A stretch of 42,432 bases of DNA from Helicobacter cetorum (GTDB lineage: Bacteria > Campylobacterota > Campylobacteria > Campylobacterales > UBA6016), in NCBI GenBank assembly GCA_022729705.1, contig DZAX01000018.1:1-42432 (forward strand), given 5' to 3'. Below, in pieces: positions 6,572 to 32,765 of this stretch (its first letter is position 1; each line of letters opens with the position of its first letter). Both the position numbers and the translations under genes were made by a program. Below the pieces are notes generated by a model. That model searched no databases and had not been told where the DNA came from. It worked only from the letters and a program-made list of their open reading frames with translations.

Positions 6572-7948
6572 ATGAAACAAAAGATGTGGGATGGAAGATT
6601 TGAAGAGGGGAGCAGCGAGCTATTAGAGGAGTTTAACGCCTCTATATTTTTTGATAAAAAGCTTTATAAAGAAGATATAAAAGGCTCTCTAGCGCACGCA
6701 AAAATGCTTTGCTCTATCGGTATACTCGACAAAACAGAGCTTGGCGATATAGAAAGAGGGCTTCATCAAGTACTTGGCGAAATAGAGAGCGGCGCGTTTA
6801 TCTTTAGCGTAAAACAAGAAGATATACACATGGCGGTTGAGAGTAGACTTACAGAGCTTATCGGCGAGGCGGGCAAAAAGCTGCATACGGCTAGAAGCAG
6901 AAACGACCAAGTGGCGACTGATTTTAGACTTTATTGTCAAAACCAAAATAAAAACATCGGACGCCTCATAAAGACGCTTATAGAGACGCTGACAAACATC
7001 GCAAAAGAGCACACGCAAACGCTAATTCCGGGTATGACGCACCTTCAGCACGCGCAACCCGTTAGTTTTGCTTTTCAACTGCTAGCTTATTGCGCTATGT
7101 TTAAGCGCGATTACGAGAGATTTGAGAGCAGCTTTGAACGAAACAACTACTGCCCGCTTGGAAGTGCTGCTTTGGCGGGTACGCCGCATGCGATAGATAG
7201 AGAGATGAGTGCAAAAGAGCTTGGGTTTTATGCGCCTACGATAAACGCCATGGATAGCGTATCCGATAGGGATTTTGCGCTTGAAATACTTTTTAATATC
7301 TCCGTACTTTTTACGCATATCTCGCGACTCTCAGAGGAGCTGATACTCTGGAGTAGCTATGAGTTTAAGTGGATTACGATGAGTGATAAATTCTCCACCG
7401 GAAGCTCTATCATGCCGCAAAAGAAAAATCCGGACGTAGCAGAGCTATTAAGAGGCAAAACAGGTAGAGTATACGGCAACTTAATGGGTCTTCTCACGGT
7501 AATGAAAGGGTTGCCGCTGGCGTATAACAAAGATATGCAAGAGGATAAAGAGGGCGTGTTTGACTCCGTAGAGACGGCGACGGCTTCGCTTGTAATACTC
7601 TCAGAGATGCTCAAAACAATGAGGGTAGAAAAAGAAAATATGCTCAAAGCGTGCGAAACAGGACACTTGACGGCGACCGACCTAGCGGATTATCTCGTAA
7701 AAAAAGGTGTTCCTTTTAGAGAGACTCATCATATATCGGGAAGAGCGGTGTCGCTAGCGGAGAAAAAAGGTGCGGATCTTTCAAAGCTGACGCTTGAAGA
7801 GCTAAAAAGTATAGATGAGCGTATAGAAGAAGATGCGTTAGAAGTTATAAAACATATAAACTCTATGAACGCTAGAAATAGCTACGGAGGTGCTTCAAAA
7901 GAGCAGACATTGGAGCAGATAGCGTATTTTGTAGGGTTTTTAAAATAA
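6572..7948 (+). CDS. argH: Argininosuccinate lyase
   Basis: ArgH splits argininosuccinate into arginine and fumarate in the last step of arginine synthesis. The 458-aa length is normal for the family. The N-terminus [20 protein letters not shown] is typical. The superfamily signature [12 protein letters not shown] near residue 277 carries the catalytic serine loop, and [15 protein letters not shown] and [12 protein letters not shown] are the other conserved blocks. The gene stands alone and converges on psd across a 148-base gap with a hairpin. Confidence 0.95.
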
Positions 7949-12401: not shown

Positions 12402-14597
12402 ATGATAAACAAAGAACTAAATATGATCCTAATAAACGCTTTTAGGGAGGCTAGAGCAAGAAGTCACGAATACATCATGGTTGAACATCTTATGCTAGCA
12501 CTGCTTGAAGATAGCGGTATTGAGAAGCTACTTTTGGAGGTTGGCGTCAATACGCTTGAAGCAAAAAGCGCTCTTTCTGAGTTTTTGGAGCGCGAAATAG
12601 AAAAAGCGCCAAAAGACGTAAAAGTAGAGCCAATTCAAACAGCGGCTTTTCAAAGAGTGATGCAGCTTATGCTTATGCACGTTCAAGGCTCTGGCAGACA
12701 AGAGGCGGGAAAAACAGATCTTTTGGCGGCTATGCTCGAAGAAGATAGCGGTTTTGGCGTGGCTCTTATCAAGTCTTACGGCGTGGAGAGAGTGGATATA
12801 TTAGAAATAATCGCGGAAGATGCGGTTGATGAGTCAAAAACGGAAACAAAAAAAGCTGAACGTAAAAAATCATATCTTGACGAGTTTGCCACCGAGCTTG
12901 TGGCACTGGCAAAAAATGGAGGCATAGACCCCGTAGTCGGCAGAGTCGATGAGATAGAGAGAACGACGCTAGCCCTCTGTCGGCGCAAAAAAAATAACCC
13001 TATACTCGTAGGCGAACCCGGGGTAGGCAAGACGGCCGTACTAGAGGGGCTAGCCCTAAAAATAGCGGACAACTCCGTACCCACTCCGCTTCAAAACGCA
13101 AAAATATTCGCTCTTGACGTGGGAGCTCTTGTAGCCGGCACAAAGTATAGGGGCGATTTTGAGAAAAGACTAAAAGGCGTGCTCTTTGAGATGGAAAAAG
13201 AGGAAAACGCCATGCTTTTTATCGACGAAATACACATGATAGTCGGAGCCGGAAGCGCAAGCGGCGGAAGCATGGATGCAGCAAACCTCCTCAAACCCGC
13301 CCTTGCAAACGGCAAACTACGATGCGTCGGCGCCACAACTTTTGCCGAATACAAAGCTAGTTTTGAAAAAGACCGCGCACTTGGCAGAAGATTTCAGAAA
13401 ATAGACGTAAACGAGCCAAGTATAGAGGATAGCTACAAGATAGTAGAGGGGCTAAAAAGCAGATACGAAGAGTTCCACAACGTAAGATACACCCCCGAGA
13501 GCCTAAAAGCCGCCGTAGATCTGACCGATAGATACATCAAAGACAAAAAACTACCCGATAAAGCGATAGATGCGATAGACGAAGCGGGTGCGGCGTTTCG
13601 CCTGCTAGCTCCCACAAAACAAAAAAGAGTCGTCAAAGATACCGACATAGAGAAGATAATCTCCAAAATCACAAAGATTCCCCAAAAAACAATGGAAAAA
13701 AACGAGCTGGAGAGCATAAGAGAGCTAGAAAACGACCTTAAAAAACAGGTGTTTGGGCAAGATAAAGCGATAGAGGAGCTAGTAAAAGCTATAAAGCGTT
13801 CAAAAGCGGGGCTTACAAGGGCTGATAAGCCGATTGGTTCTTTTTTGTTTACAGGTCCTACTGGGGTTGGTAAGACTGAGATTTGCAAACAGCTCTCATC
13901 TACGCTAAATATCCATTTTGAGCGTTTTGACATGAGCGAATACATGGAAAAACACGCCGTATCAAGGCTAGTCGGAGCGCCTCCCGGATATGTGGGGTTT
14001 GACCAAGGCGGACTGCTCACGGAGGCGGTGCGAAAAAATCCTTACTGTGTTGTGCTGCTAGACGAGATAGAAAAGGCACACCCTGACATCTCAAATATCC
14101 TACTCCAAATCATGGACAACGCCGCCCTCACAGACAATACGGGCATGAAAGCGGACTTTAGAAACGCGGTGATTATCATGACAAGCAACCTTGGAAGCGC
14201 CGACGCACCTGTGATGGGATTTGCGCCCGATGAGTCGACTAGAAGCGACGAGGCGGTCAAAAACTTCTTTGCGCCTGAGTTTCGCAACCGTATAACTGCG
14301 ATAATCAGCTTTGCGCCGCTCTCCAAAGAGACAATGATAAAAGTGGTCGAAAAGATGACGCTAGAGTTGCAAAGCTTTTTGAAGCAAAAAAATGTGGATA
14401 TATCAATAGACAAAAAAGCAAAAGAGTACCTAGCGGACAAAGGCTATGACCCAAAAATGGGTGCAAGACCGCTAGGCGGCGTAATCGAAAGAGAGATTAA
14501 AGATGCGCTAATTGACGAGCTGCTATTTGGCAAACTAAAAAATGGCGGCAAGGTCTTCGTAACGCATAAAAAGGGGAAGTTAGAGTTTAAGATATGA
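12402..14597 (+). CDS. clpA: ClpA unfoldase, ATPase subunit of ClpAP
   Basis: This 731-aa AAA+ protein unfolds substrates and feeds them to ClpP. It has an N-terminal Clp repeat domain (residues 1-140), a first ATPase domain with GEPGVGKTA and a Walker B LFIDEIH, and a second with GPTGVGKTE and VVLLDEIEKAH. There is no long ClpB-type coiled-coil insertion between them, which separates it from ClpB. An MGF segment before the FFAPEFRNRI block is a good candidate for the ClpP-docking loop. It lies between clpS and aat and overlaps aat by 4 bases. Confidence 0.93.
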   Translation: MINKELNMILINAFREARARSHEYIMVEHLMLALLEDSGIEKLLLEVGVNTLEAKSALSEFLEREIEKAPKDVKVEPIQTAAFQRVMQLMLMHVQGSGRQEAGKTDLLAAMLEEDSGFGVALIKSYGVERVDILEIIAEDAVDESKTETKKAERKKSYLDEFATELVALAKNGGIDPVVGRVDEIERTTLALCRRKKNNPILVGEPGVGKTAVLEGLALKIADNSVPTPLQNAKIFALDVGALVAGTKYRGDFEKRLKGVLFEMEKEENAMLFIDEIHMIVGAGSASGGSMDAANLLKPALANGKLRCVGATTFAEYKASFEKDRALGRRFQKIDVNEPSIEDSYKIVEGLKSRYEEFHNVRYTPESLKAAVDLTDRYIKDKKLPDKAIDAIDEAGAAFRLLAPTKQKRVVKDTDIEKIISKITKIPQKTMEKNELESIRELENDLKKQVFGQDKAIEELVKAIKRSKAGLTRADKPIGSFLFTGPTGVGKTEICKQLSSTLNIHFERFDMSEYMEKHAVSRLVGAPPGYVGFDQGGLLTEAVRKNPYCVVLLDEIEKAHPDISNILLQIMDNAALTDNTGMKADFRNAVIIMTSNLGSADAPVMGFAPDESTRSDEAVKNFFAPEFRNRITAIISFAPLSKETMIKVVEKMTLELQSFLKQKNVDISIDKKAKEYLADKGYDPKMGARPLGGVIEREIKDALIDELLFGKLKNGGKVFVTHKKGKLEFKI

Positions 14598-15346
14598 CTT
14601 TTTTGACAAGTCCGTTTGGTGCTTTTTGCTTCTCGGCATACGCTTTTCCACACGCTAGCACGGCGGACGAGGACGGACTTGTGGCTGTGGGCGGAGATTT
14701 GCACCCGCATAGACTGCTCTCCGCTTATTCTCGTGGTATATTTCCATGGTTTGTCGACAATGGATATGTCTTTTGGTATTCGCCAGACCCTAGAGCCGTA
14801 CTCTATCCGCAAGAGTTCAAACAAACCAAAAGTCTCTCAAAAACCATCAAAAAACAAAATTTTGAGTTTTGCATCAACAAAAACTTTTGCGGCGTAATGG
14901 AAGCGTGCAGGGATAGCAAACATAGAAAAGAGGGCGGCGGCTCATGGATAAGCTCCGCTTTTTTGGACGGCTACACAAAGCTTCATCAGATGGGCTTTGC
15001 TGATAGTTTTGAGTGCTATATGGACGGCGAGCTTGTCGGCGGATTTTATGGGGTGCGTCTTGGGCGGGTGTTTTTTGGAGAGTCGATGTTTTTTCATGTT
15101 GCGGACGCATCCAAGGCGGCTCTTTGGTTTTTATGCGCCAACGCCGCTAAGCTAAACATAGATGTAATAGACTGCCAACAAGAGACGCCGCACCTGCTCT
15201 CGCTTGGCGCCAAATGTATCGCAAGAGATGAATTTTTGAAAATACTTAGTCCCCCAATCTTACGGCATAATACATCATCTCAAAAAATGAACTTTCAGAA
15301 GGGGATGGTGAATGGTTACATGGGGGAGTTTTTGCCTGATATTTAG
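14594..15346 (+). CDS. aat: Leucyl/phenylalanyl-tRNA-protein transferase
   Basis: This 250-aa enzyme attaches Leu or Phe from tRNA to proteins with N-terminal Lys or Arg, creating primary destabilising N-termini. Conserved blocks are GLVAVGGDL, YSRGIFPWF, WYSPDPRAVL and GGFYGVRLGRVFFGESMF. The length is near the family norm of about 230-250. Its ATG overlaps the clpA stop, so the modifying enzyme, the N-degron adaptor and the unfoldase form one operon. Confidence 0.92.
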   Translation: MTFLTSPFGAFCFSAYAFPHASTADEDGLVAVGGDLHPHRLLSAYSRGIFPWFVDNGYVFWYSPDPRAVLYPQEFKQTKSLSKTIKKQNFEFCINKNFCGVMEACRDSKHRKEGGGSWISSAFLDGYTKLHQMGFADSFECYMDGELVGGFYGVRLGRVFFGESMFFHVADASKAALWFLCANAAKLNIDVIDCQQETPHLLSLGAKCIARDEFLKILSPPILRHNTSSQKMNFQKGMVNGYMGEFLPDI

Positions 15347-15420: not shown

Positions 15421-15720
15421 CTATTTTAGCCTTTCGGCGGCGTTTTCGTATACGTCCATTCCGTCTCTTTCGCCTATGGCTACGACCTCGACGATTATTT
15501 TGTTTTCAAATATACGATAGACTATCCGGATACGCTTATTATCGACATACATTTTGCGGCATCCAGCTAGGTCAAAACTCGCTTTATTGCCGAGTAGTTC
15601 ACCTAGTTTGGGCGAGATAGCTATTTTTTGGAGTTGTTTTGCTATTAGCTTTTTAACTCTATTGTCAAATTCCCTCAAGTCTGCTTCAACGCCGTCTTTA
15701 AATCTAATCTCGTAAATCAT
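15421..15720 (-). CDS. RelE/ParE-type toxin
   Basis: This 99-aa protein has the compact RelE/ParE fold pattern: YEIRFKDGVEADLREFD at the start, CRKMYVDNKRIRIVYRI in the core strands and VVAIGERDGMDVYENAAERL at the end. The basic core suggests an mRNA interferase or gyrase-type toxin. The ATG at 15720 sits inside the antitoxin gene (17-base overlap), typical of translationally coupled pairs; five codons upstream are in frame but less likely. It is the second gene of the pair. Confidence 0.8.
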   Translation of the reverse strand: MIYEIRFKDGVEADLREFDNRVKKLIAKQLQKIAISPKLGELLGNKASFDLAGCRKMYVDNKRIRIVYRIFENKIIVEVVAIGERDGMDVYENAAERLK

Positions 15721-16000
15721 CTTCGGTAATCCCAAACTTTGCCATCATCTCTTCAAAAGAGATAGTCGGTTGATTTTCGCGCTCTTTGACTATTCTGTAG
15801 ATTTCCATATGCTCTAGCAAATCATACGCCGCCCGCATTCTCTCATACTCGTCTATGGGGAGCATCACTAGCTCTAGTTTGTTATTTTTGGAGACGGCGA
15901 TTTTTTCTTTTTTGTGTTCGACTAGGCTTTTGTATATAGCCGAAAAACTGTGAGCGAATTCGGTGGCGGGTACTATCTCGTCTCTTGCGTATGCAATCAT
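15704..16000 (-). CDS. Phd/RelB-type antitoxin
   Basis: The 98-aa protein has an N-terminal DNA-binding part (VPATEFAHSFSAIYKSLVEHKKEKIAVSKNNKLELVML, quoted here only as the region of residues 11-48) of the Phd/YefM kind. An acidic C-terminal tail (ISFEEMMAKFGITEDDLRD) would wrap the toxin. It precedes and overlaps the toxin gene and is expected to autoregulate the pair. A 41-base exact copy of its internal sequence is found at 16781-16821. Confidence 0.78.
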   Translation of the reverse strand: MIAYARDEIVPATEFAHSFSAIYKSLVEHKKEKIAVSKNNKLELVMLPIDEYERMRAAYDLLEHMEIYRIVKERENQPTISFEEMMAKFGITEDDLRD

Positions 16001-16599: not shown

Positions 16600-16755
16600 A
16601 CTCTAATCCCCCTTTGTGTCGTCCAAAAAAATAATAGCAAAAGAGTAGCACCAAAAAGTGAAATAACGGTGAAAAGAGGACTCAATTAGAACTTCTTTTT
16701 TCTGACCTCGTCAACCAAATTATTTGCCATAGCTACGACTGTTTAGTTCCCTCAT

Positions 16756-16890
16756 AAAAGAGTGCCTGACACCCATTTAATTTTGTGTTCGACTAGGCTT
16801 TTGTATATAGCCGAAAAACTGCGAGCGCATAAAAGAGTGCCTGACACCCATTTCACGAGCGCATAAAAGAGTGCCTGACACCCATTTCAC
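16756..16890 (+). repeat. Cluster of three GTGCCTGACACC REP motifs
   Basis: The motif AAGAGTGCCTGACACCCATTT occurs at about 16758-16778, 16832-16852 and 16866-16886. The last two belong to a perfect 34-bp tandem duplication (16822-16855 and 16856-16889). The same motif with a TATTT end recurs at 19131-19153 and 19188-19208, and inverted at about 20463-20482. Such motifs resemble REP sequences served by Y1 (RAYT-type) transposases. The rest of 16600-17076 shows no gene. Confidence 0.75.
16781..16821 (-). pseudogene. 41-bp copied fragment of the nearby antitoxin gene
   Basis: These 41 bases are identical to 15910-15950 inside the Phd-like antitoxin gene, and similarity continues weakly for a few bases. 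The fragment is bordered on both sides by GTGCCTGACACC motifs. Confidence 0.75.
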
Positions 16891-17076
16891 ATTTTACTTA
16901 AGCAAAATTCCGTAAATTACATTGAAAATTTGAACTAAATTTACAATAACAGCTTATTGGCTTGATTTACGTTTGCGGTGAGGTTGTCAGGCTATGCACG
17001 TTAAATTAGTGCGTCAACGAGGCTAGGTGTGTACGAATAAAAAAGCTTAAGTAAGCACCATTCTAGCCTGTCCCTA

Positions 17077-17598
17077 TTAATCCGCCCCAAAACTCTCTAG
17101 CGTAGAGTAGAGGTGGTCTTGATACATATTGTCATGTTTTTTTACGATGTTTGTCATTTTTGTTTTTTCATCTCTTTTCTGCTCTTGTGAAAGTTCAAGA
17201 TTTTCAAGCAGTTTTAGCGCCTCCTCCAAGTGGGCATCACATCGATTTTCAATATCCTCATCACTAATGCCATACATATCTATCCAAACCACATATGCCT
17301 CAAATGCATAAAAGTGCATTTTATATAGCTCAGATGCTGATGCGCCCGATTTTTTTGCATGCGCAAAAAGTTCGCGCATCTTTTTTGCCTCTATAGATTT
17401 AGGTGGCATGCGATCAAACTGGAAATATGTAAGTTTTTCAAGCTTTTCCATATAAAAGTTAATATCCACTCCAAGTAGCCTATTTTCTAAAAATATTGTC
17501 ACATCTGCATTTAGTTTATAGATTTCACCCAATAACCTCTCTTGCGCCTTTTGTGGAAGTGCAAAAAAACTCTCTTTGACTGCTTTCAATTTACTCAT
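17077..17598 (-). CDS. Hypothetical protein paired with a pRiA4b-ORF3-like protein
   Basis: The 173-aa protein is highly charged and predicted to be helical and soluble, starting MSKLKAVKESFFALPQKAQERLLGEIYKL (described as residues 1-29). No catalytic motif is evident. It may belong to the DUF6155 group, but I am not certain. Its ATG overlaps the stop of the upstream gene by 4 bases, so the two are cotranslated. Its stop codon lies inside the left inverted repeat. Confidence 0.65.
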   Translation of the reverse strand: MSKLKAVKESFFALPQKAQERLLGEIYKLNADVTIFLENRLLGVDINFYMEKLEKLTYFQFDRMPPKSIEAKKMRELFAHAKKSGASASELYKMHFYAFEAYVVWIDMYGISDEDIENRCDAHLEEALKLLENLELSQEQKRDEKTKMTNIVKKHDNMYQDHLYSTLESFGAD

Positions 17599-18788
17599 TT
17601 TTTCCTCTTTTGCTTGAACTTCATATTTTTAAAGTATCTATTAACCTCTTCCTTGTCAAACCCTTTCTCCACAATATCCAGCAAATCAGGGTAGTATTCG
17701 CTAAACTCCTCATAATCTGGATGGTTTGGATCTTTTAGTATTTCAAGTAGCTCCACATATCCCCACATCCCACCACTATCTTCTTGTGGACATGCACCCT
17801 CTCCATCAAGACAGCAAGGAATTTGCCCCGACAACTCTTTTGGCGTAAGAAACTTATCAAGCTTTATTTCATGCTCCCAGTTGTCTCCAAAATCATAGAT
17901 ATAGCTAATTTTTTGTCCCTTTTTTGTAAAAAACTGATCGAGTGTTATCTTGTAAACATTTTGATTCTTTGGGGCGTCACCATAATCAGAAAAGTCACCC
18001 GTATCCTCCCCAATAGAGATATTTTTGCCCTCAAAACTGTACAAATGTGAATTAGTCCATCCCATGGCTATTTGAATAACCCTATGTAAATCTGCAAAAG
18101 AGATGAAGGCAGACACAACGACACTTCTCCATATTGGCGGATTCAACGAGAGGGTGATTTTTAGTTTTAGATATTCATTGGAGTCTGCTTGGACTTCGCT
18201 CTTTTTTTTACTCCCTACTTGCAACTCTAAAAGGCTTAGAGCGTGCCGATAAAGCTCACAATCCTTCAGACTTGCCACCAGCACATCTTTACTAAAAGCA
18301 CCCGATTGTCTATAGTCAAATAGTCCTTTTCCATTTTTCTCTAAGATCTGTGGATAACGCACTTTTGGCTCTGCCTCCCTAATCTCTTGGCAGGTGAGTG
18401 TAAAACATAACATTGCGCTTAAATCATAAAAAAAATATTTAGACCCCCCTCCATCAAAAAACTGCCCTGTCACTATATCTTTTGGTAAAGAGCTTCCATT
18501 TTTAACGGCATCCACGCTAAAAATATAGCCCTCTTTTGCATCTGTGAGCTTTGGTGTGTCTGCAAAAGCAAACTGCTGCTCAAATCTCAAATCAAAATTT
18601 TGGACAATCACTTTTGCCAACACCTCTAGAGATTGTGAACCACGAATGGCAATTTTTCTCCATGATTGAAAATCATCAAATCTTTTATCTTCCATTTGCA
18701 CCATAATGCAATAAAGCTTTTGATGATGTGCCTGCTGCTCTTTTTTGCCTAAAATAGGCTTATTTGCTTGATAGATATTTTTTGACAC
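17595..18788 (-). CDS. Plasmid pRiA4b ORF-3 family protein
   Basis: The C-terminal half (about residues 200-385) has the pRiA4b ORF-3 signature: LKITLSLNPPIWRSVVV, FADLHRVIQIAMGWTNSHLY, YIYDFGDNWEHEI and GEGACPQEDSGGMWGY. The N-terminal half (residues 20-190) repeats the same theme in weaker form (WRKIAIRGSQSLEVLAKVIVQ, YFFYDLSAML), so the protein may be an internal duplication with one degenerate copy. The biochemical function of the family is not established. It heads a two-gene unit flanked by inverted repeats. Confidence 0.78.
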   Translation of the reverse strand: MSKNIYQANKPILGKKEQQAHHQKLYCIMVQMEDKRFDDFQSWRKIAIRGSQSLEVLAKVIVQNFDLRFEQQFAFADTPKLTDAKEGYIFSVDAVKNGSSLPKDIVTGQFFDGGGSKYFFYDLSAMLCFTLTCQEIREAEPKVRYPQILEKNGKGLFDYRQSGAFSKDVLVASLKDCELYRHALSLLELQVGSKKKSEVQADSNEYLKLKITLSLNPPIWRSVVVSAFISFADLHRVIQIAMGWTNSHLYSFEGKNISIGEDTGDFSDYGDAPKNQNVYKITLDQFFTKKGQKISYIYDFGDNWEHEIKLDKFLTPKELSGQIPCCLDGEGACPQEDSGGMWGYVELLEILKDPNHPDYEEFSEYYPDLLDIVEKGFDKEEVNRYFKNMKFKQKRKK

Positions 18789-18992
18789 TCGCTCTCCTTA
18801 TGCGTATGAATTCTATTTCTATGAGAATAACAAAAGTGAGCTTTTTTTGTGAAGAGTTGATTAAGAGAGAATTAAAATTAATGGAAAATTAATGGGGACA
18901 GGCTACTTTTATTTTAAAAATGGTAACCCCCAAGTAAACCCCATCCAAAAAACCAAATAAATTCCCCTAATTTCAAAATTAAGTTATCTATT

Positions 18993-19024
18993 AAAGCCCC
19001 TATTTATAGGCTTTCTGGTATAAT
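18993..19024 (+). promoter_or_regulatory. Hairpin plus TATAAT before a 30-aa gene fragment
   Basis: AAAGCC and GGCTTT (18993-18998, 19009-19014) can pair. A perfect TATAAT follows at 19019-19024, only 7 bases before the ATG at 19032. A transcript from it would be leaderless or nearly so. Confidence 0.35.
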
Positions 19025-19031
19025 TTGCACT

Positions 19032-19124
19032 ATGAAACAAGAAGTAATAACAATAGAATCCTTAACTGAAATCATAGAGAACAAAGATATTATTATTGAG
19101 CAAAAAGATAAAGCTATTAAATAA
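19032..19124 (+). pseudogene. 30-codon N-terminal fragment, possibly of an IS66-type transposase
   Basis: The short frame MKQEVITIESLTEIIENKD and onward is acidic and coiled-coil-like and stops just before a GTGCCTGACACC motif. The start of IS66-family transposases often looks like this, but 30 residues are too few to be sure. It reads as a gene start cut off by REP insertion or deletion. Confidence 0.3.
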
Positions 19125-19130
19125 AAGAGT

Positions 19131-19210
19131 AAAAGAGTGCCTGACACCTATTTCTCTTTATTTAAGAAAAAAATAAGAAAATGCATAAAAGAGTGCCTGA
19201 CACCTATTTA
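19131..19210 (+). repeat. Pair of GTGCCTGACACC REP motifs
   Basis: Two direct copies of AAAAGAGTGCCTGACACCTATTT lie about 57 bases apart. A different motif, CACCTGACCCC, follows at about 19271-19281. Otherwise positions 19125-19380 contain no convincing gene. Confidence 0.65.
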
Positions 19211-19380
19211 TATAGCTAATTATTTTTGGTGAAATATGGTGGTTGTACTGTTGCGAAAAGTGAAGATTGAACACCTGACCCCATTTTTCGTTTTCCCCGT
19301 TTTTTGCAAGACAAAAACATGTTGCCGTTGAGATTGCAGAGTGGAGCCATGTGGCGGCGTAACTCTCATATGAAAGAGTT

Positions 19381-20316: not shown

Positions 20317-20431
20317 TTTCAGCCTTATTTTATAAAGTTGCCCATCATAACACAAAATCCCCATCATCACCAAGTGCCACAAGCCCTTCTAGCTCAGCAG
20401 TTGCCATGATAATACAATCAATAGAAAAAAA

Positions 20432-20482
20432 GGGGCAGGCTGCTTTTTTAAACACATGAAAAAATAGATGTCAGGCACTCTT
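20432..20482 (-). repeat. REP motifs in inverted orientation
   Basis: A ggggcaggct half-motif is followed by GATGTCAGGCACTCTTTT, the reverse of the motifs at 19131-19210. Together these bracket the membrane protein gene with inverted repeats. Confidence 0.55.
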
Positions 20483-20589
20483 TTGACTCTTTTGAAACAT
20501 TTCTTAATTTAACATAATAGACCGCTCCTAGCATTATCTAATTCATATTGAGACAAAATACGGTTTTCTTAAGTCGATGGTGATATTGC

Positions 20590-30915: not shown

Positions 30916-31317
30916 TTAGCCTTGATTGATAATATAATTATAAATTGTTTCAGGACTAGCTTCGTCGATACTGCACACGAAGTACCCATCCGTTCAAAAA
31001 GTTTTTTCTTTCCAGAAATGCTTTTGCAAATAGTCTTGATGTAAATCCCAAATTCTTTTAGTTGTGATTGATTTTACCCGATTGGCAATCGACGAGATTG
31101 AGATTCTTGGAATATGCTGTAGCATTATATGGATATGGTCTTTGTCAGTTTCCATTTCGATTATATCAAAGTCACTATTGTTCTCGATGTCTCTGATGAT
31201 GTTTTTTATATCCACCTCTAAGCCGTATTGCAGTAACTTTTTTCTATATTTGCACACCAATATCAAATGCACTTTTAGATTGTGTTTTGCCCTGTTTGTA
31301 GTCTGATAGCCATACAA
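30916..31317 (-). pseudogene. tnpA: IS200/IS605 TnpA transposase, interrupted by TGA
   Basis: The first 107 codons encode a Y1 transposase with its HUH metal site at H61-I-H63 (DHIHIML). Codon 108 is TGA where the family has Trp (TFW-DGYFVCSI). The same frame then continues for 25 codons (TDGYFVCSIDEASPETI and onward) to a TAA at 30916. The likely catalytic tyrosine, Y128 in NYI, lies beyond the TGA. The simplest reading is a single TGG to TGA mutation. Other genes here use TGA as stop, so recoding is unlikely. Confidence 0.8.
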
Positions 31318-31628: not shown

Positions 31629-32765
31629 GTGTTAAAAGCGTATAAGTATCGTATCTATCCTACAAAGTCACAAATAACTCTTATTGAAAAACACTTTGGT
31701 TCTACAAGATTTCTTTATAATTATTTTTTAGACTATCGTCAAAAAGAGTATGCGAAAAGGAATAAAAAAGTAGGGTATATCGTTACGCAAGGTGAACTTA
31801 CAAAACTAAAACAACTTGAAGAGTATCAATGGCTTAATGAGTGTGGAAGTCAATCACTGCAAATGGCTCTAAGAGATTTAGATAGTGCATTTACGAAGTT
31901 CTTCAAAAAACAAGGTGGCTATCCAAAATTTCATTCTAAGAAAAATACACACCAAAGTTTCACGGCTCCTCAAAATATAAAAGTAGCCAATAACCGTGTC
32001 TATCTTCCAAAGTTCACTAAAGACGGTATCAAAACAAAACTACATAGAGAAATTCCAAGTGATGCTATTCTCAAGCAAGCAACTATTTCACGTCAAAATA
32101 ATCAGTATTTTATTTCGATACTTATAGATGATACTATTCCAATACCTAAGCCCATCAAAGCAAAAACAGCGGTTGGCTTAGATATGGGTATAGCCCATCA
32201 ACTTATCACAAGTGACGGAGTTAAATATCCAAACGAAAAACACTATGTAAAATCCCAAAAGAGATTACTACATCTTCAAAGAAGACTATCGAAAAAACAG
32301 AAAGGTTCAAACAATAGAAACAAAGCAAAACTAAAAGTTCAAAAACTTTATACCAAAGTTGCAAATCAAAGAAAAAACAATCTTCACAAAATATCCAATG
32401 AGATAACCAATCAATACGATATTATCTGTCTTGAAACTTTGAATGTAAAAGGTATGATTAAAAACAGAAGATTAAGTAAATCAATAGCTGATGTTGCGTG
32501 GGGTGAGCTTATGCGGCAATTAGAATATAAGGCAAGCTGGAGAGGTAAAACAATCATTAAGATTGACCAATGGTTTCCATCAAGTCAGATATGTTCTAAT
32601 TGTGGCGCTAGTACAGGTAAAAAACCTCTCAACATAAGAAAATTTGATTGCCCAGAATGTAAAAGAAAAGATATTGACCGTGATTACAATGCAGCTGTCA
32701 ATATTAGAAACTACGGTTTAGGACAATTAGACAACAGAAATACGGCAGGAACTGTCGAAGTATAA
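31629..32765 (+). CDS. tnpB: TnpB RNA-guided nuclease of IS605
   Basis: This intact 378-aa TnpB has the N-terminal helix-turn-helix region (YKYRIYPTKSQ), the RuvC-like catalytic residues D185 (VGLDMGI), E269 (CLETLNVKGM) and D352 (RDYNAAVNI), and the zinc ribbon cysteines C322, C325, C341 and C344. A gaaaaaggagcc ribosome-binding site precedes the GTG start. TnpB proteins are guided by an RNA from the element's right end. All key residues are present, although the partner transposase is broken. Confidence 0.92.
   Translation: MLKAYKYRIYPTKSQITLIEKHFGSTRFLYNYFLDYRQKEYAKRNKKVGYIVTQGELTKLKQLEEYQWLNECGSQSLQMALRDLDSAFTKFFKKQGGYPKFHSKKNTHQSFTAPQNIKVANNRVYLPKFTKDGIKTKLHREIPSDAILKQATISRQNNQYFISILIDDTIPIPKPIKAKTAVGLDMGIAHQLITSDGVKYPNEKHYVKSQKRLLHLQRRLSKKQKGSNNRNKAKLKVQKLYTKVANQRKNNLHKISNEITNQYDIICLETLNVKGMIKNRRLSKSIADVAWGELMRQLEYKASWRGKTIIKIDQWFPSSQICSNCGASTGKKPLNIRKFDCPECKRKDIDRDYNAAVNIRNYGLGQLDNRNTAGTVEV

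Follow-up and report, generated by a model that had tools for sequence, protein, structure and literature searches.

Outward-Facing REP-Type Repeats around a pRiA4b ORF-3-Like Gene Pair in a Repeat-Rich Accessory Region

In the window analysed here (the whole 42,432-nt stretch of contig DZAX01000018.1), a pair of overlapping genes is enclosed by an 18-bp inverted repeat, and this arrangement raises the question of whether the repeat marks the ends of a mobile two-gene unit or represents separate copies of a dispersed repeat family. An earlier note, made from the sequence alone, had proposed the former, with a REP-type transposase acting in trans. An inverted repeat placed neatly around an operon need not denote a mobile unit; it is the family of the repeat and the polarity of its arms that count.

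The gene pair and its inverted repeat

The two genes lie on the minus strand with a 4-base overlap, namely a 173-aa partner gene (17077..17598), which had no Pfam, NCBIfam, or PADLOC match, and a 397-aa PRiA4_ORF3 (plasmid pRiA4b ORF-3-like) gene (17595..18788), whose product scored 205.1 bits against Pfam PF07929 (gathering cut-off, 26.6). Residues 42–159 of the latter protein resembled a second, diverged copy of the PRiA4_ORF3 domain, and because the same place in two related loci (L014 and L095) aligned both to this N-terminal part (about 43–159) and to the C-terminal domain, the protein looks like a tandem domain duplication. A single-sequence structure prediction for the 173-aa protein was all-helical at low confidence (pLDDT 61). 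PADLOC gave no defence match for either gene of the pair, and a literature search judged by titles found no paper on the function of pRiA4b ORF-3.

The 397-aa gene was present once in its own genome and at full length in none of 59 other genomes, and none of 2733 plasmid records covered 80% of the protein. A search of genome contigs seeded by six short peptide patterns, with more distant pRiA4b genes lying outside its sample, yielded 45 loci with relatives, of which one (L082) was full length and shared the left flank of the window. The remaining 44 loci contained no REP-A or REP-B repeat within the fetched flanks and no partner gene; the 173-aa partner was found in L082 alone, with no relatives in plasmids, viral contigs, or these 44 loci. 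In two genomes of the same genus (G001 and G002), no match to the 397-aa gene was detected, and an empty site could not be read because the flanking genes sit on different contigs there.

The inverted-repeat search of the window placed the arms at 17064–17081 and 18888–18905, each of 18 nt with 17 of 18 positions complementary (94%), confirming at the exact coordinates the repeats (17064–18905, 17/18 identical) that the earlier note had reported. The left arm (minus strand), which reads TAGCCTGTCCCTATTAAT, is composed of the core GGGACAGGCTA of a repeat family designated REP-A on that strand plus TATTAAT (the names REP-A to REP-D were coined in this analysis), and the right arm (plus strand), which reads ATTAATGGGGACAGGCTA, of ATTAAT plus the REP-A sequence GGGGACAGGCTA, followed by CTTTT. 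Both arms point away from the gene pair. The left arm covers the 3′ end of the 173-aa gene together with its stop codon, as had been noticed from the sequence, and the 397-aa gene starts 99 bp inward of the right arm. As to the further statement that the ends enclose the pair and nothing else, it held for the DNA between the arms, which contains the 173-aa and 397-aa genes and no other gene, but not for their outer edges, which are not clean: a miniature element adjoins the left arm and a dispersed repeat lies 17 bp to the right of the right arm.

If one mismatch at most and a spacing of up to 2.5 kb are allowed, three inverted 18-mer pairs are present in the window, two of them formed by REP-B, as against one in ten Markov-simulated windows taken together. 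Pure chance, i.e., an 18-bp inverted match with no family behind it, would thus be expected to furnish about 0.1 such pair per window (1 in 10 simulations). The match is moderately unlikely by length alone, and the stronger point is the genome-wide repeat family: with a core that is dispersed here and elsewhere and that also belongs to a transposase-flanking repeat, pure chance is hardly credible. The similarity of the two arms extends past the REP-A core by six A/T positions (ATTAAT), for which we estimate a probability of about 1 in 64 if A or T alone is allowed at these positions.

A transposase-associated repeat family and the polarity of its copies

Alignment of the genome sites gave a REP-A consensus of about AAAAGGGGACAGGCTACTTTT, with the core GGGACAGGCTA in both arms. 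In the 2.19-Mb genome to which the window belongs, this core was found at 8 exact sites and, with at most one mismatch, at 28 sites versus 8 for the reversed control; the 18-letter arm pattern with up to three mismatches gave 11 sites versus 0 for the control. Among 249 sampled genomes of the phylum, REP-A (AAGGGGACAGGCTACTTTT, at most one mismatch) was present in 15, own genome included, with 0 for the reversed-pattern control in the rows shown. Chance alone was rejected as the origin of the repeat on the basis of this dispersal in the own and other genomes. The pairing of REP-A copies around this particular operon may be a coincidence.

Of 12 Y1 (IS200-like/RAYT) transposase genes examined, three were accompanied by REP-A, four by REP-D, two by REP-B, and three by none of these repeats. 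In genomes G263, G190, and G220, REP-A formed exact inverted repeats of 17–21 bp just outside the transposase gene, arranged as A+ [tnp] A− in all three cases, and the encoded enzymes (215–222 aa) were 45–74% identical to each other. REP-D (AGGGGTCAGGGCTAAACTTTT) was likewise found as inverted repeats around four transposases of 252 aa that were 74–97% identical. The two REP-B-associated transposases (247 and 261 aa) comprised one on contig C17 of the own genome, beside which REP-B (AGTGCCTGACACC) runs in the same direction on both sides and hence forms no inverted pair, and one in G230, which was 51% identical to the former and had REP-B on one side. Across these loci (L066, L198, and L201–L210), repeat families were observed to go with transposase groups. 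Meanwhile, Y1_Tnp was detected in 13 of the 15 REP-A genomes (12 over the family cut-off) versus 7 of 21 REP-A-negative genomes, which were hand-picked rather than random, being mainly the first entries of the list together with four members of related families.

According to Di Nocera et al. (2013; PMC3733652), such repeats are the TIRs of TIRYT transposases (‘TIRtrons’); some TIRs carry a GGGGWSAS motif, and many are arranged in dimers or clusters. The right arm fits this motif with GGGGACAG and the left arm, with one mismatch, with AGGGACAG; the REP-D motif GGGGTCAG fits it as REP-A does. Because REP-A flanks Y1 transposases and both REP-A and REP-D fit the published TIR motif, the REP-type connection suggested in the earlier note turned out to be right, the repeats of the window belonging to a REP/RAYT-type family.

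The postulated transposase acting in trans, on the other hand, found no counterpart, as no REP-A-flanked transposase was detected in the own genome, in whose 75 contigs a gene may have been missed. Three Y1_Tnp hits were obtained there, one on C17 among REP-B copies and two, on C72 and C48, with no REP-A nearby. The RAYT-like gene on C17 scored 72.4 against an NCBIfam RAYT cut-off of 80. The C72 locus around 14442–15044 (L076) is a second RAYT-like gene, beside which a different repeat of the type GGAAGTGGGGCTTTAGCCCCGC was noted by eye. In the window itself, 30922–31317 and 31629–32765 constitute an IS200/IS605-type pair composed of a Y1 transposase frame, interrupted internally by a TGA stop, and a gene of the TnpB/OrfB-like type. 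A search of the literature on RAYT with Sulfurimonas, judged by titles, gave nothing relevant.

The usual REP-A element reads GGGGACAGGCTAC → [transposase, or some 30–100 bp] ← GTAGCCTGTCCCC, that is, inward, whereas the arms in the window are outward, A− [pair] A+, opposite to the transposase elements. In counts based on coordinates entered by hand from a list showing the first places per genome, with single-place contigs (G230, G233, G165, G242, and some in G252, G207, G263, G190, and G220) omitted, REP-A neighbours at most 150 bp apart (at most one mismatch) were inward (A+A−) in all 13 listed doublets; among intervals of 151–2500 bp, to which the left arm of the window, missing from the list owing to its differing flank, was added, 8 of 13 were outward (A− … A+), the window included, and both inward ones were transposase genes. 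In 11 loci of a hotspot in another genus, searched with up to two mismatches, six of seven close doublets were inward and the seventh was a same-direction pair, while the eight intervals of 151–2500 bp were outward in four cases, same-direction in three, and inward in one. We read most outward intervals as the spaces between inward elements; at least four of them (window, G021, C40, and G271) have no doublet on one side or both. Ordinary genes are held within such intervals, including a DUF4160 gene in G021, a DUF4238 gene in G271, and, in the own genome, a 272-aa gene on C40 (A−15039, 272-aa ORF, A+16087), and G263 provides a further gene interval with the REP-A polarity of the window.

Sister-strain contig, REP-B copies, and neighbouring elements

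The full-length relative L082 (98%) lies on DYOP01000084.1, a contig filed under a Bdellovibrio bin, with the partner gene also present. Since the repeats of the region matched nine times on this contig and twice on one other contig of the bin, it was probably misbinned and would come from a strain close to that of the window. It aligned with window 16876–19137 at 99.2% identity, unbroken through both arms, and both edges of this block fall in REP-B. On the left, where the window has three same-direction REP-B copies (AAAGAGTGCCTGACACCCATTT; 16757..16888, plus strand; cores at 16761, 16836, and 16870), the contig resumes as window 16693–16778 with the stretch between REP-B copies absent, the junction being 16778/16876. 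On the right, where two REP-B copies are located (19130..19211, plus strand; cores at 19136 and 19192), the match ends in REP-B at 19137, beyond which come, in the contig, a shortened form of a YgjP-like gene and genes for a DUF7149/Eco57I-type protein and a HigB toxin, and, in the window, a 333-aa gene. The far end of the contig again matches window 20418–20495 (plus strand), which consists of a REP-A-like variant (AAGGGGCAGGCTGCTTTTTT), from which the homology resumes, and an inverted REP-B-like copy. Judging from these alignments, the contig appears to represent this same location on the chromosome, occupied by other modules, with the reservation that it is a bin fragment in which misassembly or misjoins at repeats are possible.

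The YgjP piece of the contig was 97% identical to C17:8204–8538. In the corresponding locus (L138, 2862–3197), the shortened YgjP-like gene begins within a REP-B copy, and its first residues, MHKRVPDTHF, are therefore translated repeat. The Eco57I-type and HigB modules gave no match longer than 121 bp in the own genome among the matches listed (40 of 158 candidates scored); the contig was therefore treated as another strain, and the possibility of a second locus within the own genome was set aside. The changes in the gene pair between the window and the sister strain (7 synonymous, 6 non-synonymous) are too few to judge selection.

These comparisons bear directly on a non-autonomous two-gene element with TAGCCTGTCCC…GGGACAGGCTA as its ends, mobilised in trans by a REP-type transposase. 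Such an element would account for the exact enclosure of the operon by REP-A, which elsewhere borders transposase genes, and is in keeping with the single-gene intervals of the same polarity on C40, G021, G271, and G263 and with a gene pair lying within an inward REP-A pair in G273 (see below). Its polarity, however, would be opposite to that of 3/3 transposase elements and 13/13 listed close doublets. Inspection of other sites for the same ends revealed a single copy in the own genome and the near-identical copy of the sister strain, which runs on through the arms and ends in REP-B; neither an empty site nor a target duplication was found, G001 and G002 being non-contiguous across the site, and no REP-A-flanked transposase was detected among the 75 contigs. 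With ends of the wrong orientation, and with the sole comparison at hand running through the arms, the claim that the pair moves as a unit through these ends was not supported, and we regard it as very improbable.

The pair could instead be the cargo of a larger REP-B-bounded module that is gained, lost, or exchanged as a unit, either by the C17 transposase situated among REP-B copies or through recombination of direct repeats, which we consider possible but somewhat doubtful as a whole. Both sister-strain junctions (16778/16876 and 19137) lie in REP-B, of which the own genome has 74 sites (control, 0). Moreover, the 8.2 kb of C17 107–8224 (L066) are interspersed with 21 REP-B copies of one direction, among which lie small ORFs and the RAYT-like gene (7113–7856), and look like a REP-separated module array. 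Against this, the pair is present in both strains, and their comparison shows neither its gain nor its loss; the sister contig has a further edge at the 18923 repeat, outside REP-B; assembly errors at repeats may have occurred; and the C17 gene is below the NCBIfam RAYT cut-off. This scenario does not conflict with the explanation by separate REP-A copies that we prefer, of which it is a special form.

The dispersed repeat beside the right arm (18923..19106, plus strand) matched C42:56–235 and C22:52–180 and occurred twice in the sister contig. We suspect from its appearance that it may be the end of an insertion sequence; its 30-aa peptide gave nothing above the Pfam cut-off. Farther to the left, a ParE-type toxin gene and a Phd/YefM-like antitoxin gene lie beside the region (15421–16000), and a 50-nt stretch of the antitoxin gene (15910–15959) recurs at 16781–16830 with 96% identity.

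The miniature element (16890..17063, plus strand) directly abuts the left REP-A arm with its right terminal repeat GCTTAAGTAAGCACCATTC at 17045–17063, its left end being degenerate; the element has terminal inverted repeats, and the right junction alone is intact in this copy. The end pattern GCTTAAGTAAGCRCCATTC matched 18 times in the own genome versus 5 for the control, and on visual inspection alone most of 15 ends retrieved with flanks adjoin a REP-like 11-mer such as tagcctgtccc, gggtctgaccc, gcacctgacacc, or gtgcctgacccc. An identical 11-bp REP-A core borders the C10 copy on both sides in direct orientation and nearly equal direct repeats, with one base missing, border the C28 copy, while the other three of the five two-ended cases (C36, C74, and C17:14110–14151) have unequal flanks. 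The element seems to insert into REP-like repeats, and the most likely role of the left arm is that of the repeat targeted by one such event. At C17:14110–14151, two terminal repeats of the element were found 6 bp apart, constituting a minimal derivative of about 42 bp.

The above-mentioned hotspot in another genus lies beside a 713-aa gene whose family was present in 10 of the 11 loci, and the genes found there among REP-A and REP-D copies differ between species. When G230 (1 contig) was compared with G021 (2 contigs), a 3.1-kb gene block was absent in the former and present in the latter. One edge at which the homology breaks is a REP-D copy that is diverged in G230, and the second edge adjoins a REP-A copy. 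The few loci of this one hotspot (11) and the sister contig suggest that differences in gene content may preferentially coincide with REP copies. In G273 (L197, 7205–8182), an inward REP-A pair 958 bp apart encloses HepT-like and MntA-type nucleotidyltransferase genes, and in G151 the same pair (656 bp at 88.7%), likewise located in this hotspot, has REP-A-like sequences to its left and right; the window is therefore not alone in having a small operon in a REP-A setting. The G273 pair shows the polarity expected of a real unit and, as a candidate REP-A-bounded cassette, is preferable to the pair in the window.

Origin of the arrangement and relation to known systems

Taken together, we infer with reasonable confidence that the arms are debris of separate REP-A copies in a REP-rich accessory region, in which modules differ between close strains at repeat junctions. 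The identity and polarity of the repeats, the distribution of their family, the adjoining miniature element, and strain differences edged at REP copies are direct observations, whereas the debris status of the arms and the part played by recombination are inferred. In this proposal, the arms would be independent copies of an inverted-repeat/REP-type sequence from a clade of HUH tyrosine (Y1, RAYT/TIRYT) transposases, one immediately downstream of an accessory two-gene operon and the other, oppositely oriented, immediately upstream, and the operon between the outward repeats would be situated outside or between inward REP-A elements. The left copy would seem to have been hit by the miniature element. 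The whole of 16.7–20.5 kb would represent a repeat-rich accessory region, and the module differences between strains would be explained most simply by recombination or deletion at REP copies.

Several observations count against this proposal of separate copies. Debris does not require the sharing of ATTAAT by both arms. The REP-A intervals of 151–2500 bp are mostly of the outward kind seen in the window, at least four of them lacking a flanking doublet, and a wide inward interval with no transposase exists in G273 (958 bp). Direct repeats of the miniature element were clear in one and nearly so in another of the five two-ended cases. The sister contig, moreover, is a fragment from a bin to which it probably does not belong, and may contain misjoins at repeats.

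More broadly, the REP/TIR repeats of Y1 transposases might serve as module boundaries in this phylum, with cassettes, such as toxin-antitoxin, restriction-modification, and pRiA4b-type operons, being swapped between REP copies in an integron-like manner devoid of an integrase and accumulating in hotspots; REP-A pairs around small operons would then be one class of cassette. We regard this generalisation as unlikely. Of more interest than the original claim are the transposase-linked repeat families, the miniature element that appears to insert into REPs, and the gene differences edged at REPs, the last of which make a role of REPs in accessory-gene turnover testable.

Compared with known systems, the 397-aa protein is a member of the PF07929 family by score, and differs in its apparent second N-terminal domain copy and in a partner for which no relatives were found beyond the sister strain. 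REPINs are doublets of inverted REPs, tens of bases long and scattered through a genome, whereas the two copies in the window are 1.8 kb apart, face outward, and form no hairpin doublet. Insertion sequences that target REPs do exist (PMC1525189), and like them the element in the window abuts a REP-like target, with a REP-core direct repeat at one of its copies; it differs from those described there in being miniature, with no parent element identified, in the 11-bp length of the direct repeat at the C10 copy, and in the unequal flanks of three among its five two-ended cases. With respect to the TIRs of TIRYT/RAYT (PMC3733652), the copies in the window depart from the description in flanking a non-transposase operon in reverse polarity, with no cognate transposase found in the genome, but REP-A agrees with it in being short and dispersed, in forming inverted repeats around Y1 transposase genes, in occurring as doublets, and in carrying GGGGWSAS.
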